Origin: Streptomyces sp. NBC_01465
GTDB taxonomy: Bacteria > Actinomycetota > Actinomycetes > Streptomycetales > Streptomycetaceae
Length of the DNA stretch: 64,000 nt
Assembly: GCF_036227325.1 (NCBI RefSeq)
Contig: NZ_CP109467.1
Location: 3,596,001 to 3,660,000 of the forward strand
Reading direction: 5' to 3'
Each line of letters begins with the position of its first letter. Position 1 is the first letter of the stretch. A program made the position numbers and the translations under genes. Positions 15,273 through 25,221 of this stretch are shown here, in pieces. Below the pieces are notes generated by a model. That model did no database searches. It worked only from the letters and a program-made list of their open reading frames with translations, and had not been told where the DNA came from.

Positions 15273-16856
15273 CTAGACGGAGGCCTCGGCCTTGTCCTTG
15301 TCAGCGTCCTGCGGAGCAGCAGGAGCCGGCGTACCGGCCCCCCGCAGCGCGACCTCCTTGACGAAGAACGCCGCCACGAAGACCGCCACCGCGATGCACG
15401 CACCGAGCAGGAACCCGGCGTGGACACCGGAGGAGACCGCGAACTTGTACGCCTCCTGCACCTGCTCCGGCAGCTTCTTCAGACCGGCCGCGTCCAGCTG
15501 CGCCGACGGAAGCGCACCCGCCGCCTTGCCGAGCCGCGAAGCCATCTCGTCGTTGACGCGGTTGGTGAAGAGCGCGCCCATGATCGCGACACCGAAGGAG
15601 GATCCGAGCGTACGGAAGAGGGTGGTCGTGGAGGACCCCACGCCCATGTCCTTCATCTCCACGCTGTTCTGCGCGACCAGCATCGTGATCTGCATCAGGA
15701 AGCCCATGCCGGCGCCGAGCACCGCCATGTAGATGCCGGTCGACAGACGCGAGGTGTCGACGTCCATCGTCGACAGCAGGTACAGACCCACCGTCATCAG
15801 CGCGCCGCCCGCGATCGGGAAGACCTTGTACTTGCCGGTGCTGGTGGTGACACGACCCGCGATCAGCGAGACGGCCATCATCGCGAGCAGCATCGGCATC
15901 AGCAGCAGACCGGAGTTGGTCGCCGAGGCGCCCTGCACGGACTGCTGGTAGAGCGGCAGGAAGAGCATCGCGCCGAACATCACGAAGCCGGTCATGAAGC
16001 CGATGACCGACATCACCGAGAAGTTGCGGCTGCGGAAGATGTGCAGCGGCACGACCGGTTCGGCGGCCTTGGTCTCCCAGAAGAGGAAGCCGACGATCGA
16101 GGCGACGCCGAGGAAGATCAGCTCCATGATGATCGCGGAGCCCCACTCGTACTGCGAACCGCCCCAGGTGGTCACCAGCACGATGGAGGTGATCCCGATG
16201 GTGAGCAGTGCGGTGCCCAGATAGTCGATCCGCCCGCGCGCCCGCTTCTTCGGCAGGTGCAGTACGGCGGTGACCATCGCCAGCGCGACCGCGCCGAGCG
16301 GGAGGTTGATGTAGAAGGTCCAGCGCCAGCCGAGGTGGTCAGTGATGGTGCCGCCGACCAGCGGGCCGCCGATCATCGCGAGCGCCATGATCCCGGCCAT
16401 CATGCCCTGGTACTTGCCGCGGTCCCGCGGCGGAATCAGGTCACCGATGATCGCCATCACGCCGACCATCAGGCCGCCGGCGCCGAGCCCCTGAATGGCG
16501 CGGAAGCCGATGAGCTGGCCCATGTCCTGCGCCATGCCGCTGAGCGCGGAGCCGACGAGGAAGATCACGATGGAGGTGAGGAAGGCGCCCTTGCGCCCGT
16601 ACATGTCGCCGATCTTGCCCCAGATCGGGGTGGAGGCGGCGGTGGCGAGCGTGTACGCCGTGACGACCCACGACAGGTGCTCGAGCCCGCCGAGTTCGCC
16701 GACGATGGTCGGCATCGCGGTGTTCACGATCATGTTGTCGAGCATCGCGAGCAGCATCGCGATCATCAGCGCGAAGAGGACCACCCGCACGCTGCGCGGC
16801 TGTGGTCCGTCCTTCGCCTCCGGTATCGCGTCTGCCACGTTGGCAGTCCCGGCCAT
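15273..16856 (-). CDS. MFS drug-efflux transporter, DHA2 (EmrB/QacA) type
   Basis: A 527-residue, 14-helix proton antiporter. It carries the DHA2 motifs LDNMIVNTAMPTI in TM1, the loop GKIGDMYGRKGAFL (motif A) and GLGAGGLMVGVMAIIGDLIPPRDRGKYQG. It starts at ATG 16856; GTG codons just upstream are possible but lack spacing to a ribosome site. It is divergent from a TetR gene, with operator-like palindromes in the 106-bp gap, which predicts a drug-inducible pump repressed by that TetR. Substrates cannot be named. Confidence 0.94.
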   Translation of the reverse strand: MAGTANVADAIPEAKDGPQPRSVRVVLFALMIAMLLAMLDNMIVNTAMPTIVGELGGLEHLSWVVTAYTLATAASTPIWGKIGDMYGRKGAFLTSIVIFLVGSALSGMAQDMGQLIGFRAIQGLGAGGLMVGVMAIIGDLIPPRDRGKYQGMMAGIMALAMIGGPLVGGTITDHLGWRWTFYINLPLGAVALAMVTAVLHLPKKRARGRIDYLGTALLTIGITSIVLVTTWGGSQYEWGSAIIMELIFLGVASIVGFLFWETKAAEPVVPLHIFRSRNFSVMSVIGFMTGFVMFGAMLFLPLYQQSVQGASATNSGLLLMPMLLAMMAVSLIAGRVTTSTGKYKVFPIAGGALMTVGLYLLSTMDVDTSRLSTGIYMAVLGAGMGFLMQITMLVAQNSVEMKDMGVGSSTTTLFRTLGSSFGVAIMGALFTNRVNDEMASRLGKAAGALPSAQLDAAGLKKLPEQVQEAYKFAVSSGVHAGFLLGACIAVAVFVAAFFVKEVALRGAGTPAPAAPQDADKDKAEASV

Positions 16857-16879
16857 CTTCCCCACCACTCCCCATTTGG

Positions 16880-16962: not shown

Positions 16963-17538
16963 ATGATGGCCAGAGGGAACACCCGGCAGCGCATCCAGGA
17001 CGTAGCGCTGGAGCTCTTCGCCGAGCAGGGGTACGAGAAGACCTCTCTCCGGGAGATCGCCGAGAAACTGGACGTCACCAAAGCGGCGCTCTACTACCAC
17101 TTCAAGACCAAGGAAGACATCCTCGTCAGTCTCTTCCGGGACCGGACCGCCCCGATCGACGAGCTGATCACCTGGGCGCAGGGACAGCCCAGCACCCTGG
17201 AGACGAAGCAGGAGATCCTGCGCCGCTACAGCGAGGCGCTCGACACCGCGTCCCCTCTCTTCCGCTTCATGCAGGAGAACCAGGGCACGGTGCACAAACT
17301 CAGCATCGGCGAGAGCTTCAAGGACCGGATGCTGAGCCTGCGCGAGCTGATCAACGTCCCGGACGCCTCACTCGCCGACCAGGTCCGCTGCATGAGCGCG
17401 CTCTTCACCATGCACGCCGGCATGTTCGCCCTCAAGGACGCCGAAGGCGACCCGGAGGAGAAGCGCAAGGCTGTCCTCGAGGTCGCCACGGAGCTGATGA
17501 GCCAGGCTCACACAGGGATTACGGACGTCACACCGTGA
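16963..17538 (+). CDS. TetR family repressor, probable regulator of the MFS pump
   Basis: A 191-residue regulator. The helix-turn-helix spans about residues 8-55 (TRQRIQDVALELFAEQGYEKTSLREIAEKLDVTKAALYYHFKTKEDIL). The C-terminal helical domain should bind the inducer. It is divergent from the DHA2 efflux gene with shared palindromes, the standard arrangement for a repressor of its neighbour and of itself. The ATG at 16963 is followed by a second ATG in frame; CGGAG precedes both. Its stop overlaps the convergent M23 peptidase gene by 11 nt, so the two 3' ends run into each other. Confidence 0.92.
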   Translation: MMARGNTRQRIQDVALELFAEQGYEKTSLREIAEKLDVTKAALYYHFKTKEDILVSLFRDRTAPIDELITWAQGQPSTLETKQEILRRYSEALDTASPLFRFMQENQGTVHKLSIGESFKDRMLSLRELINVPDASLADQVRCMSALFTMHAGMFALKDAEGDPEEKRKAVLEVATELMSQAHTGITDVTP

Positions 17539-18244
17539 CGCCCTTGCCGCGCAGGAAGGCGACGGGGTTGACCGCGGAGCCGTAGTCCGGGGTCGTACGG
17601 ATCTCGAAGTGCAGGTGCGGGCCGGTCGAGTTGCCGGTGGAACCCGAGTAGCCGATGACCTGGCCGGTCGTGACGGTCTGGCCGACCTTCACGTTGGCCG
17701 AGGTGAGGTGCGCGTACTGCGAGTACGTGCCGTTGTCGTGCTTGATCACGATGGCGTTGCCGTACGCGGAACCGTCGCCGGCGCCGTCCAGGTTGTTGCT
17801 CGCCTTCACGACGGTGCCGCCGTGGACGGCCTTGACCGGCGTACCGGACGCGACGACGAAGTCCTGGCCCGAGTGCGAACCGCTCGACCACAGGTTGCCG
17901 CCGGTCCCGAAGGTCGAGCCCAGCGTGTAGTTGTCGACCGGCGTGACCCACTCGCTCGCGAGCTTCTTCGCCGAAGCGGCCTTGGCGTCCGCGGACTTCT
18001 TGGCGGCGGCCGCCGACTTCTTCTGAGCCTCCGCGGCCTTCTTGGCGGCGGTGGACTGCGCGTCGGCCTGCTTGTCGAGAGCGGAGGCGGCGTTGGTGGT
18101 GCCCGCCAGGATCGTGTCGTTGTCAGCCGCGAACGCCGCACCCGCACCGAACAGCGCGGTTGCGCCGATACCGGCCGCCACGACGGTGGCGACACCGCGA
18201 CGCAGGGACCGGTTGGCTATGTGGGAAGAGGCGCGCTTCGACAT
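17528..18244 (-). CDS. Secreted M23 family metallopeptidase
   Basis: A 238-residue exported peptidoglycan endopeptidase. A basic N-terminus and hydrophobic core (GVATVVAAGIGATALFGAGAAFA) form a signal peptide cut near residue 40. Residues 52-97 are an Ala/Lys-rich probable coiled coil. The lysostaphin-type domain carries H124-x3-D128, H179 and H210-x-H212 (GPHLHFEIR), the zinc ligands and catalytic histidine. ATG 18244 follows GGAG by 9 nt. Related wall hydrolases are often under a c-di-AMP riboswitch in Streptomyces; I could not find that motif in the leader here. Confidence 0.93.
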   Translation of the reverse strand: MSKRASSHIANRSLRRGVATVVAAGIGATALFGAGAAFAADNDTILAGTTNAASALDKQADAQSTAAKKAAEAQKKSAAAAKKSADAKAASAKKLASEWVTPVDNYTLGSTFGTGGNLWSSGSHSGQDFVVASGTPVKAVHGGTVVKASNNLDGAGDGSAYGNAIVIKHDNGTYSQYAHLTSANVKVGQTVTTGQVIGYSGSTGNSTGPHLHFEIRTTPDYGSAVNPVAFLRGKGVTV

Positions 18245-18472
18245 GGCAGGTACTCCGAACTCAGGGGGCATCCCAGCCAGACGGGCCGGGGGAACTCATC
18301 CTTGGTAACGCGGCCCCCCAGACCGCCCCAAATCAGCCATCTACGAATAAAGGCCGTAGAGAGCCCTCGGGAAATACGCCTCTAGCCAGCCCTCTCCACC
18401 CACGAGAAACCCGCCCTCCGAATCGGGTTTAACCCGAGCTCGATCCCTGCCCGCCCCCGGCTTTACCCCCGA

Positions 18473-18647: not shown

Positions 18648-21600
18648 GTGGATCCCGTAGTCATGCGCATCGCGTCGAGCGTGGCCAGCCCGCTCATCAA
18701 GAAGCTCTTCCAGGCGGAGGGCCCGGGCGCGGGCCTGGTCGACAGGCCGGTCCGCATCGCGTCGTACGTCTCCTTCAAGGGCGAGAAACGCACCCTGACG
18801 GGCACGGACATGCACGACCTGGCGGCGGCCCTGGTGAAGGAGGCCTTCCGTACGGAAGAACGCCCGGCCCCCGCGGACGAGGAATGGGCGGTGGTCGACG
18901 CCCTCACGACCACGCTCTACGCGCTCGGCGACCTCACGCTCAGCGACGTGGCGGCCGTGGAACTCGGCCACCGGTCCCTGGCCCGCGAACTGCGCCGCGC
19001 GGCCGACACTCCGGAGCGCGAACTCTCCGCGGACGCCACGTACTTCTACGAACGCCTCCTGGAAACGGCCTGCCTGCACATCCTGAACTTCTTCACCCAG
19101 CGCTCGACGTTCATCCCGGCGACGCTGGTCGCGCAGAGCCGTCGCCAGGCCGAACTCATAGCCCTGATCGACGAATTGATAGCCCGCAATCCCCTCCCAG
19201 GCTCGGCGGACGCGGCCTTCGAGAGCCGCTACCGCGAACACATCACGCAGAAGCACAACGCCCTCACCATTTACGGGATCGACCTGCGCGAATTCCCGGA
19301 GCGGTGGCCGCTGGACGCGGCGTATCTCAGCCTGGAGGCGACCGGCACCCAGCCGCACAGCTTCGGCCTGCCCGGCGAGCAGTTGGAGCCCACCACGGTC
19401 AGGCTCCCCGCGGAGGAGGCCTTCCTGGACCACGAGCGGGTACTGCTGCGGGGCGACGCGGGCTCCGGCAAGACCACCCTCGTCCAGTGGCTGGCGATCA
19501 CAGCGGACCGTGGCCGGATCCCTTTCGTCCTCCCCCTGCGCACCCTGATCCGCGCGGACACCCTCCCCACACCGGCCCTCTTCCTGGCCTCCGTCGCCTG
19601 CCCGCACACCCCGCCGGACGGCTGGGCGGAGCGCGTACTGCGTTCCCGCCGCGCCCTGGTCATGGTCGACGGCCTCGACGAAATCCCCGGCCCCGACCGC
19701 GCCCGTACCAAGTCCTGGCTCCTCGACCTCACCACCGCGTTCCCTGGCAACCACTGGCTGGTCACGAGCCGCCCCACCGCTGTGCGCCCCGACTGGCTGG
19801 ACGGCTTCCGCGAACTGACCCTGGCCCCCATGACCAGCTCCGATGTGGCTGCGTTCGTACGGCGCTGGCACGGGGCCGCGGACGCGGCCGAGTACGAGGA
19901 GAGGCTGCTCTCCGCGCTCCGCACCCGCCCCGGGCTGGCCCAACTGGCCACCAACCCCCTGATGTGCGGCCTCATCTGCGCCCTCTTCCGCGAGCGCCGC
20001 GGGTTCCTCCCGCGAGGCCGCAAGGAGCTGTACGACGCGGCGCTCGCCATGCTCCTGGACCGGCGCGACATGGAGCGTGGCATGGGCGCACCCGACGGCA
20101 TCGACCTGGGCACCGAGGCCCGCCGCTCACTGCTGCAGCGCATCGCATACGCACTGATCCTCAGCGGCCGTACGGAAATGGACCAGCAGGACGCGACGGC
20201 CATCATCGACCGCAATCTCCCATCGATCACGACCGCCACCGGCCGCGCCGACGCCCCGGCGGTCTTCCGCCACCTCCTCCTCCGCAGCGGCCTGTTGCGC
20301 CAGCCGGCCGACGGCATCGTCAACTTCGTCCACCGCACGTTCCTGGACTACCTGGGCGCCGAAGCCGCCGTGAAGGACGGCCACCTGGATGTGCTGGCGA
20401 GCCGGGCAGCCGATCCCACGTGGGAGGACGTCATCCGGATGGCTGTCGCCCACGCCCGCCCCCATGAACGGACGGCGATCCTGGCCAAGTTGAAGACGGA
20501 GGCCGACACCGCCGACGACCCCGCGACCAACGCCCGGCTGCGCCTCCTCGCCATGGCCTGTCTGGAGGACGCACCGGAACTTGACCCCCGGGTCCGCGCA
20601 GAGGTCGAGTCCCGTGCGGCCCAGCTCATCCCGCCGAGCACCACGGCCGAGGCCCGCATCCTGGCGGAAGCCGGTCCGCTGGTCCTGGAACTGCTCCCCG
20701 GCCCCGAGGGCCTGACCGACGAGGAGGCACTGGGGGTGACGATCACGGCATCACGGATCGCCACCGACGCGGCACTCCCTGTCCTGAAGAGCTACCGCTC
20801 CCATCCGAATCTCCGCGTACGGGCCCAACTGGCCGGAACCTGGCACCGGTTCGACGCCGATGAGTACGCGGACGAGGTGATCGCACACCTCGCCCCCGAA
20901 GACCTCCAGCTCACGATCACCACACCGGAACAGCTCCGCACGCTCCGGCGCATGGCCCCGCACCACAGCATCGCCCTGATCGGCGCCCATGACGTTCCGG
21001 ACGCCCTCGCGGTCCTGCACCGGCCCACGCTGAGCCAGCTGAACATCAGGTCCAACCCCGGCCTGGCCGACGTCGAACCCCTGACGCACTTCCCCGAACT
21101 CTTCCAACTGGTGCTGGACGACTGCCCGTTGGTGAGCGATCTGTCACCCCTCATGGACACGGGGATCTCCTGGCTGAGCATCTCCGCCCTGAGGAGCCTG
21201 ACGAACCTGGGAGGACTGGCGTCGCTCTCCCGCCTCACCAGCCTGAGTGTCAGCCAGCCCCTGCCCGGCGACGACCTCTCCGCGCTCCCGGCAGCCGCGC
21301 CGCTGACCTTCCTCTTCCTCAGCCACGACGCGGTCACCGACACCGGCCTGCGCGGCCTCGGCCGGTGGCCGACGCTGACGCGGCTCAGCCTCGGTCCACA
21401 CGCGGGCCGCCTCACCCCGGAGGACTGGGCGGAGGTCGCGAGCCTGCCCGAACTGGACTCCCTCTACTTGCACCGCACCGTGCTCGATGCCGCCGACAGT
21501 GCCCCGGCCCTCCCTCACGTCACGCACCTCGGCATCAACAACATGTACGGGTCGGAGGACCTCTCCGCCCTGGCGCGCCTCTTCCCCAACCTCCGCACGG

Positions 21601-21704
21601 TCTCCCTCGCCCCGTCACCCTCAGGAAGAATTCGCACCGCGGAGCGCTACGCGGTCCTCTTCCCCGGCGCCGAGGTCACCATCAGCCCGGTGTACGGCTT
21701 CTGA
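18648..21704 (+). CDS. NACHT-domain ATPase with C-terminal leucine-rich repeats (bacterial NLR-like)
   Basis: A 1018-residue STAND ATPase. Residues 1-250 are a mostly helical N-terminal domain typical of actinobacterial NACHT proteins (LIKKLFQAEGPGAGLVDRPVR near the start). The NACHT core shows Walker A G269-DAGSGKTT, the Walker B variant VMVDGLDEIP (DGLDE at 341-345) and the sensor LVTSRP (371-376), followed by winged-helix and helical segments. From about 790 to the end, spaced Leu/Ile residues with LxxLxLxxC-type steps form leucine-rich repeats, presumably the sensor. Related bNACHT proteins defend bacteria against phages. GTG 18648 was chosen (18645 and ATG 18663 are possible). It stands alone; no effector gene adjoins it. 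Confidence 0.9.
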   Translation: MDPVVMRIASSVASPLIKKLFQAEGPGAGLVDRPVRIASYVSFKGEKRTLTGTDMHDLAAALVKEAFRTEERPAPADEEWAVVDALTTTLYALGDLTLSDVAAVELGHRSLARELRRAADTPERELSADATYFYERLLETACLHILNFFTQRSTFIPATLVAQSRRQAELIALIDELIARNPLPGSADAAFESRYREHITQKHNALTIYGIDLREFPERWPLDAAYLSLEATGTQPHSFGLPGEQLEPTTVRLPAEEAFLDHERVLLRGDAGSGKTTLVQWLAITADRGRIPFVLPLRTLIRADTLPTPALFLASVACPHTPPDGWAERVLRSRRALVMVDGLDEIPGPDRARTKSWLLDLTTAFPGNHWLVTSRPTAVRPDWLDGFRELTLAPMTSSDVAAFVRRWHGAADAAEYEERLLSALRTRPGLAQLATNPLMCGLICALFRERRGFLPRGRKELYDAALAMLLDRRDMERGMGAPDGIDLGTEARRSLLQRIAYALILSGRTEMDQQDATAIIDRNLPSITTATGRADAPAVFRHLLLRSGLLRQPADGIVNFVHRTFLDYLGAEAAVKDGHLDVLASRAADPTWEDVIRMAVAHARPHERTAILAKLKTEADTADDPATNARLRLLAMACLEDAPELDPRVRAEVESRAAQLIPPSTTAEARILAEAGPLVLELLPGPEGLTDEEALGVTITASRIATDAALPVLKSYRSHPNLRVRAQLAGTWHRFDADEYADEVIAHLAPEDLQLTITTPEQLRTLRRMAPHHSIALIGAHDVPDALAVLHRPTLSQLNIRSNPGLADVEPLTHFPELFQLVLDDCPLVSDLSPLMDTGISWLSISALRSLTNLGGLASLSRLTSLSVSQPLPGDDLSALPAAAPLTFLFLSHDAVTDTGLRGLGRWPTLTRLSLGPHAGRLTPEDWAEVASLPELDSLYLHRTVLDAADSAPALPHVTHLGINNMYGSEDLSALARLFPNLRTVSLAPSPSGRIRTAERYAVLFPGAEVTISPVYGF

Positions 21705-21794: not shown

Positions 21795-22628
21795 ATGCCG
21801 TACTTCGAGACCACCACCGACAACACCCGCCTCCACTACGTCGACTACGGCCCGTCCACCGGCCGCACCATCCTCTTCATCAACAGCGCCTACTTCGGCA
21901 CGGAGATGTGGGAGCGCCAGATGCTCCCCCTCGCCACCGACGGCTACCGCTGCGTCGGTCTCGACCGGCGCGGGCACGGGCGGTCCGACGACGTCTGGGG
22001 CGGGTTCGACCTCGATACGCTCGCCGGCGACATCGCGGCACTCGTCGACCATCTCGACCTCACCGGCATCACCCTCGTCGGCCACTCGATCGGGACCGCC
22101 GAGGCCGTCCGCTACCTCACCCGGCACGGCAGCGAGGGCCGGGTCGACCGCATAGCCCTGGTCGCCGGAATGACGCCGGGCCCCGCACGCTCCGCCGATC
22201 ATCCGGAGGGTGTCGACCCCGCGCTCCTCCAGGCCGGCGGCGACGCCTTCCGCCGCGACCGGATGGCGTTCTTCGACGACAGCCTCGAAGGCTTCTTCGC
22301 CCTGCAGTTCCCGGAGAACCAGCTCTCCCCCGGATACGCCCGCTACATGGTCGACAAGTGCGCCGCGGCCACCGCCCGCGCCGGGAACGCCATCTTCGAC
22401 ATCCTCGTCACGATGAACGTCGCCCCGGAGATGACGAAGATCGCCGTCCCCGCCCTCGTCATCCACGGCACCGACGACGCCTCCGCCCCCATCGACCTCA
22501 CCGGCCGCCGGTCTGCCGCCCTGATCCCGGACGCCGCCTTCAAGGTGTACGAGCACGGCGGCCACGGCCTCATGACCACGCACGCCGATCAACTCACCGC
22601 TGATCTGCGGGAGTTCATGACCGCCTGA
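21795..22628 (+). CDS. Alpha/beta hydrolase
   Basis: A 277-residue single-domain hydrolase. The nucleophile elbow is GHSIG (LVGHSIGTAEAV), the acid lies in VIHGTDDASAPID and the histidine in YEHGGHGLMTTH; the oxyanion segment FINSAYFGTEMWE replaces the usual HG pair. It resembles non-haem chloroperoxidase/esterase-type enzymes of the family, with RRGHGRSD after strand 4. The substrate is unknown. It begins 90 nt after the NACHT gene and ends at a strong hairpin, so co-transcription with the NACHT gene is possible but not evident. Confidence 0.9.
   Translation: MPYFETTTDNTRLHYVDYGPSTGRTILFINSAYFGTEMWERQMLPLATDGYRCVGLDRRGHGRSDDVWGGFDLDTLAGDIAALVDHLDLTGITLVGHSIGTAEAVRYLTRHGSEGRVDRIALVAGMTPGPARSADHPEGVDPALLQAGGDAFRRDRMAFFDDSLEGFFALQFPENQLSPGYARYMVDKCAAATARAGNAIFDILVTMNVAPEMTKIAVPALVIHGTDDASAPIDLTGRRSAALIPDAAFKVYEHGGHGLMTTHADQLTADLREFMTA

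Positions 22629-22692: not shown

Positions 22693-25221
<2,529 letters not shown>

Follow-up and report, generated by a model that had tools for sequence, protein, structure and literature searches.

Relation to described NACHT proteins

Bacterial proteins in which a NACHT NTPase domain is combined with leucine-rich repeats (LRRs) have been called bona fide bacterial NLRs (nucleotide-binding leucine-rich-repeat receptors) in the excerpted text of PMC12169576. According to the same excerpts, bNACHT clade 14, with bNACHT02 and bNACHT12, is protective although no effector domain can be discerned in it. We analysed a stretch of 64,000 nucleotides from Streptomyces sp. NBC_01465 (NZ_CP109467.1, positions 3,596,001-3,660,000; hereafter the window), part of a 9.14 Mb contig. 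It carries the gene of a protein with an N-terminal NNH1 domain, a NACHT domain and C-terminal LRRs. We regard this protein as an NLR-type, probably anti-phage immune receptor which would kill or arrest the cell through NNH1. A preliminary description of the sequence had likewise put forward a stand-alone NLR immune sensor, and this remains the best reading.

Like bNACHT25 and bNACHT12, as portrayed in those excerpts, the window protein is the product of a single gene with a (here putative) N-terminal effector, a NACHT switch and a C-terminal sensor. The parts differ: bNACHT25 combines a DNase effector with NCH1, and clade 14 has SNaCT (PMC12169576, excerpts), whereas the window protein has NNH1 and LRRs. 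Unlike these two, it belongs to Streptomyces and lies at a recurrent polymorphic site. An NLR-type ATPase with a trypsin-like peptidase, as encoded by a second gene type of the same site, is also found in the CARD-NLR system LypABC, which the excerpts of PMC13236601 describe as three genes with a CARD-like domain and a TPR-like sensor. The window protein, in contrast, comes from a single gene and is of NACHT-LRR type, and the Pfam search found no CARD in it. Local similarity to EruA and HyoA extends from the end of the NACHT domain onward (E 1.2e-12 and 8e-5), but with 46.8 bits against an NCBIfam cut-off of 1000 and 20.4 bits against one of 1200 the protein belongs to neither family.

While bacterial NACHT-LRR proteins are thus already known, the site offers a genus-wide natural series at one locus, in which the switches are related, the effectors are of two types, the sensor faces are many and empty sites can serve as controls. 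This series lets one ask what is sensed by a bacterial LRR, by what route sensor modules become diverse and how NNH1 acts. No description of the site, of the pair of NNH1 and trypsin types or of the variable concave face was found in the open-licence full texts searched, which did not include the main bNACHT survey (Kibby 2023). The words NACHT, AVAST, NLR and clpC are absent from the main text of a survey of defence systems in Actinobacteria (PMC10482375).

Architecture and predicted fold

The gene and the parts of its product are as follows.

18648..21704, plus strand: NNH1-NACHT-LRR protein (P0001), 1018 amino acids, open frame from GTG at 18648 to the stop at 21704
18663..19184 (residues 6-179), plus strand: NNH1 domain, putative effector (PF22733, E 8e-54), helical in the AlphaFold2 model
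19203..19340 (residues 186-231), plus strand: pre-NACHT linker, from comparison of a 22-protein non-NNH1 consensus with the window protein and an 86-sequence alignment
19437..19877 (residues 264-410), plus strand: NACHT NTPase domain (PF05729, E 5.8e-26, far above cut-off)
19452-19478, plus strand: Walker A, G269-T277, invariant in the 86-sequence alignment
19668-19682, plus strand: Walker B, D341-E345, invariant in the same alignment
19764-19775, plus strand: TSRP motif, residues 373-376, likewise invariant
19878..20957 (residues 411-770), plus strand: helical regions past NACHT in the AlphaFold2 model
21030..21617 (repeat starts at residues 795-982), plus strand: nine LRRs, putative ligand-binding face (internalin matches and AlphaFold2 model)

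The GTG start matches the M-x-P opening of the homologue consensus; an alternative start is ATG at 18663. The complete NACHT core of the preliminary description was confirmed at its motifs, and the combination of a NACHT domain, Walker A, Walker B and a TSRP-type sensor places the protein among the NACHT-clade STAND (signal transduction ATPases with numerous domains) NTPases. The N-terminal domain had been described as helical and without a known effector motif. Its helical nature is borne out by the model, but it is a member of a named Pfam family, NNH1, with 182.9 bits against a curated cut-off of 27. The pre-NACHT linker is recognisable in both NNH1-type and trypsin-type proteins and is the apparent boundary between effector and switch.

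The repeats proposed earlier for the C-terminus start at residues 795, 818, 840, 863, 886, 910, 936, 958 and 982. Pfam LRR_4 matches below its cut-off (E 1.4e-4, 22.5 bits against 27). We nevertheless consider the LRRs real, because internalin chains match within residues 777-976 (best E 6.2e-9) and nine LRR strands stand in register in the model. The protein accordingly has the LRR array C-terminal to NACHT that is expected of an NLR.

The AlphaFold2 model of the protein (pLDDT 89) has the animal NLRs NLRC4, NOD2 and NLRP3 as its best structural matches, and these are the closest solved folds over model residues 184-1017 (184-1013 for NLRC4). They share with the model a NACHT domain and C-terminal LRRs. 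They differ from the window protein, to which they are 12-19% identical, in that NNH1 takes the place of CARD or PYD and in that its LRRs are internalin-like; no CARD-type match was obtained in the Pfam search of the protein. The NNH1 part of the model (pLDDT 80.5) consists of helices at residues 10-18, 52-69, 76-95, 100-106, 108-118, 128-152 and 155-180.

A polymorphic site next to clpC

The gene lies in an interval bounded by an M23 peptidase gene and by clpC, which it faces.

15273..16868, minus strand: MFS (major facilitator superfamily) transporter, further left anchor, assigned by reading the sequence, without a family search, and by synteny
16963..17538, plus strand: TetR regulator, further left anchor (PF00440; synteny)
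17528..18271, minus strand: M23 peptidase gene, left-hand site anchor (PF01551)
21795..22628, plus strand: alpha/beta hydrolase between the NACHT gene and clpC (PF00561)
22693..25215, minus strand: clpC, convergent neighbour, right-hand site anchor (Pfam)

The clpC gene is present in all 150 genomes of the genus that were searched, and ClpC of the other 149 is 92-98% identical to that of the window. The region downstream of clpC was compared in 120 of these 149 genomes, the remaining 29 being omitted, some for a clpC gene near the end of its contig and some to hold the sample at 120. The gene order MFS-TetR-M23-[NACHT]-clpC recurs across the genus. A left anchor was found in 111 of the 120 loci, and in 107 of the 120 the anchor used was the M23 gene. 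As a full gene we counted an open reading frame (ORF) of more than 2300 bp with a NACHT match above 100 bits.

Full NACHT genes occupy 57 of the 111 anchored loci, four loci have fragments only and 50 have none. One gene is present in 46 of the occupied loci, two in nine and three in two. Of the nine unanchored loci, three have one gene, one has four and five have none. The count was limited to NACHT ORFs that run convergently with clpC; when strand was disregarded, all 74 full genes pointed towards clpC. The gene is thus neither universal nor limited to a single lineage. Universal conservation, which the preliminary description would have taken as an argument against an immune role, was not seen in the survey of the locus that it had proposed.

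At least some of the absences are losses, because a piece of a NACHT gene is still recognisable in eight of the 54 anchored loci that lack a full one (L050, L056, L063, L113, L116, L117, L127 and L137). This count excludes a match of 20 residues at L165 and discounts matches within over-extended ORF starts (L084, to residue 151; L073, to residue 90; L132, 437-481), which were treated as shared upstream non-coding DNA. The upstream non-coding DNA of trypsin-type genes is also recognisable in loci lacking the gene (such as L081, L086 and L095, compared with L084), and may harbour a conserved element or a small gene that escaped annotation.

On a tree of the 71 of the 111 genomes with usable MFS and TetR genes, flanking genes which can recombine with the locus, presence and absence require 19 changes, at least 13 of them on well-supported branches. 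Shuffled labels gave 23.4 changes on average, and 23 of 500 shuffles were as low as the observed value; presence or absence clusters only slightly on the tree.

Two further observations concern the history of the site. The short copies (see below) of L062 and L140 are 98.7% identical, and only one of the two loci has an LRR-type gene beside clpC, a difference which looks like a recent gain or loss. In another family of the order, an NNH1 fragment lies about 2.7 kb from clpC (G037:C19:260451-260633), which hints that the site may predate the genus.

Two gene types at the site

The site has 77 full genes in all: 55 of NNH1-type (more than 50 bits to the NNH1 of the window protein) and 22 others. 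A Pfam scan of 43 proteins, the window protein and 42 others of the site, identified NACHT in 43, NNH1 in 25 and Trypsin_2 in 15. Pfam scans covered 21 of the 22 non-NNH1 proteins (18 and three more; L132 was outside); in L146 and L152, NACHT was matched and trypsin was not. The non-NNH1 lineage mostly has a trypsin-like protease in the N-terminal position of NNH1, and motifs of the catalytic site are kept across its 22 proteins (His AHV, Asp DxALL, Ser GLSGxP).

The N-terminal position of STAND proteins is that of the effector, according to the excerpts of PMC12169576. Mainly because a trypsin-like protease occupies the same position in the site-mates, we favour NNH1 as the putative effector, one of two options left by the preliminary description.

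A short NNH1-NACHT form accounts for 17 of the 55 NNH1-type genes (loci L062, L074, L094, L097, L099, L100, L102, L139, L140, L158, L159, L160 and L162). It is shorter at the C-terminus by about 100-200 residues, in the region of the LRR, and ends about where the LRR would start, the tail past Walker A measuring 587-605 residues against 690-803. In seven loci it is found in tandem with the long form. A conserved helper in a sensor/helper pair is not supported: when the N-terminal part common to both forms is compared, the short form shows the higher conservation in only six of 21 pairs, and its higher conservation over the full length in 16 of 21 locus pairs mostly reflects the LRR. The short copies of L102 and L162 are 98.6% identical and the adjacent long copies about 76%, a contrast pointing to a sensor gene that was replaced, or diverged, recently.

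Variability of the sensor and exchange of modules

The LRR is by far the most variable part of the protein. Mean column entropy over 120 homologues is 0.78 bits for NNH1, 0.57 for NACHT and 1.92 for the LRR, and mean pairwise identity among the first 60 homologues is 0.72, 0.77 and 0.42, respectively. Within the LRR, entropy reaches 2.76 bits on the concave face (five positions per repeat), against 0.72 for the scaffold leucines and 1.80 for the other positions, from which N9 was set apart (concave against other positions, p 6e-9). Compared with its 73% identical relative L021, the window protein is identical at 162 of 174 NNH1 sites and at 10 of 45 concave residues.

The history of the LRR also differs from that of the remaining protein. 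Synonymous divergence (dS) of the LRR is above that of NACHT in 89 of 91 pairs. For 38 genes, a tree built from residues 6-600 and one built from the LRR have 12 of 35 splits in common, and each rejects the other (differences in log-likelihood, 941 and 229; p-AU, 2.5e-8 and 1.7e-8). The pattern is consistent with exchange of sensor modules between copies or strains. Since NNH1, NACHT and the following helical part share only 11-15 splits with each other, mosaicism may be general, or this may be the noise of short trees.

Proposed function and alternatives

For the ligand, the oligomer, the toxicity of NNH1 and the anti-phage effect we infer the following course. The resting receptor would be cytosolic and autoinhibited. 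The concave face of the LRR would bind a protein of an invader (a phage or another mobile element), or one of the host's own proteins after the invader has altered it. NACHT would then oligomerise in an ATP-dependent manner and cluster the N-terminal NNH1 domains, which would bring about death or arrest of the hyphal compartment (abortive infection). On this reading the genes are gained, lost, duplicated and recombined between the M23 peptidase gene and clpC, in zero to four copies, and the two receptor lineages, with NNH1 or with a trypsin-like protease, replace or accompany each other there.

A number of results weigh against this reading or narrow it. The first concern selection. Pairwise NG86 estimates of omega (medians of 106 pairs, which are not independent) are 0.27 for NNH1, 0.30 for NACHT, 0.54 for the LRR and 0.96 for the concave face; over 79 register-safe pairs the concave value is 1.00, with 39 pairs above 1. 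Maximum-likelihood (ML) estimates for 38 genes under MGK are 0.13 for NNH1, 0.17 for NACHT, 0.30 for the LRR outside the concave and scaffold positions and 0.42 for the concave face, the last being 0.28 under GY. Because of the ML value of 0.42, the NG86 value near 1 is taken to be inflated by codon bias or saturation, and positive selection on the concave face is not proven by either model. The concave face ranks highest with both methods, and changes faster, under weaker selection than elsewhere, a claim that stops short of omega above 1; relaxed constraint could be an alternative cause. The preliminary description had named purifying selection on the LRR face as an argument against immunity. 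The concave LRR face turned out to be the most variable part, though selection on it was not shown to be diversifying.

As for NNH1, the structure prediction proposed earlier, which modelled the nine LRR strands, gave a helical domain with no confident relative among solved structures in a fold search. Its nearly invariant residues D100, C142, R152 and S153 do not point to any known catalytic set. Identity to the window protein is 29-32% for the trypsin type and 43-57% for the other NNH1-types of the site; both types are present in three genomes of the 71-genome tree, and among 28 single-type genomes the type switches only twice. With these identities and two changes, a recent in-place swap of effectors is not supported, and the safer reading is that two old lineages with different effectors share one site.

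Defence libraries and phage records gave little. No NCBIfam model was above cut-off for the window protein, and PADLOC (2023 library) returned only partial P-loop matches (best E 0.0025) and no match over the whole protein to a model of Avs (AVAST) or any other system. Ten neighbouring proteins, named by reading the sequence except for ClpC, had only generic PADLOC matches (MutY to a nicking-endonuclease model, ClpC to AAA models and, weakly, a response regulator and Lsr2), so the gene lies outside any recognised defence island. In phage records there were only two weak NACHT matches, both in Vibrio phage, and among viral contigs no relative was confirmed.

Plant R-gene loci and fungal het NLR loci have clustered copies, presence/absence, different effector domains and variable sensor faces. 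The M23-clpC site shares these traits in a different kind of host, a likeness drawn mostly by inference from species-level comparison. We see an even chance that the interval is a dedicated, long-lived NLR locus like a plant R-gene cluster or a fungal het locus, in which receptors come and go and are duplicated in tandem, LRR modules reassort by recombination, variation is concentrated on the concave face, and two effector lineages occupy the site by turns or jointly. If so, NNH1 would represent a class of NLR effector that is new, kills the cell and has no catalytic signature.

Two effector types at one site, presence/absence, tandem copies and a hypervariable LRR face, in a multicellular hyphal host, would also befit a self/non-self (allorecognition) or conjugation-control locus which, like fungal het NLRs, recognises, at hyphal contact, polymorphic proteins that belong to other strains or to conjugative elements. 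However, phage pressure accounts for the same pattern, the results point to no self-ligand and the sampling comprises one genome per species; we consider this function unlikely. Streptomyces use STAND-type regulators, and the site is among housekeeping genes, beside clpC, as might suit a regulatory STAND protein in development or metabolism without a defence role. This is improbable in view of the 54 of 111 loci without a full gene, the trypsin-like proteases that site-mates carry at the effector position, a sensor conserved far less than the switch, and a Pfam search of the window protein up to E 1 that found no DNA-binding domain. Relics and fragments at the site, and a concave ML omega not above 1, could indicate fast-evolving remnants under relaxed constraint with little present function, but the purifying selection on NNH1 and NACHT, Walker motifs invariant over 86 sequences and the catalytic motifs kept in the trypsin type make this quite improbable. 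That the receptor guards the unfoldase ClpC, or uses it as a chaperone, is highly improbable: clpC adjoins the gene, convergently, in all 29 best non-window matches of a 392-genome search (L002, L003 and L021-L047), and bNACHT25 requires DnaJ (PMC12169576, excerpts), but co-expression is not the default for convergent genes, relatives are also found elsewhere and on plasmids, and 54 of 111 loci have clpC without a full NACHT gene.

Neighbouring hydrolase gene and distribution

The preliminary description saw no nuclease, protease or membrane effector gene adjoining. The alpha/beta hydrolase gene, however, starts 90 bp 3' of the NACHT gene on the same strand. We rejected it as a partner effector and judge it to be outside the system, because nothing above 30 bits matches it at the site in the 120 other genomes.

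Among the 120 matches listed for the window protein, the closest is 73% identical (S. beijiangensis) and the next 72%, the others being at 55-60%. Matches at E 1e-100 or better occur in 253 of 392 genomes of the genus, its own included. PF22733 is above cut-off in 19 of 41 genomes (its own and relatives) and in none of 14 control genomes. At E 1e-20, 24 plasmid records match, 14 of them from Streptomyces, and six cover at least 80% of the query. A full-length relative of 54% identity lies on a linear plasmid of 709 kb (L169; NZ_CP108307.1, about 302883-305902); no gene is annotated there and tblastn gives two pieces, and it is possibly a broken copy.
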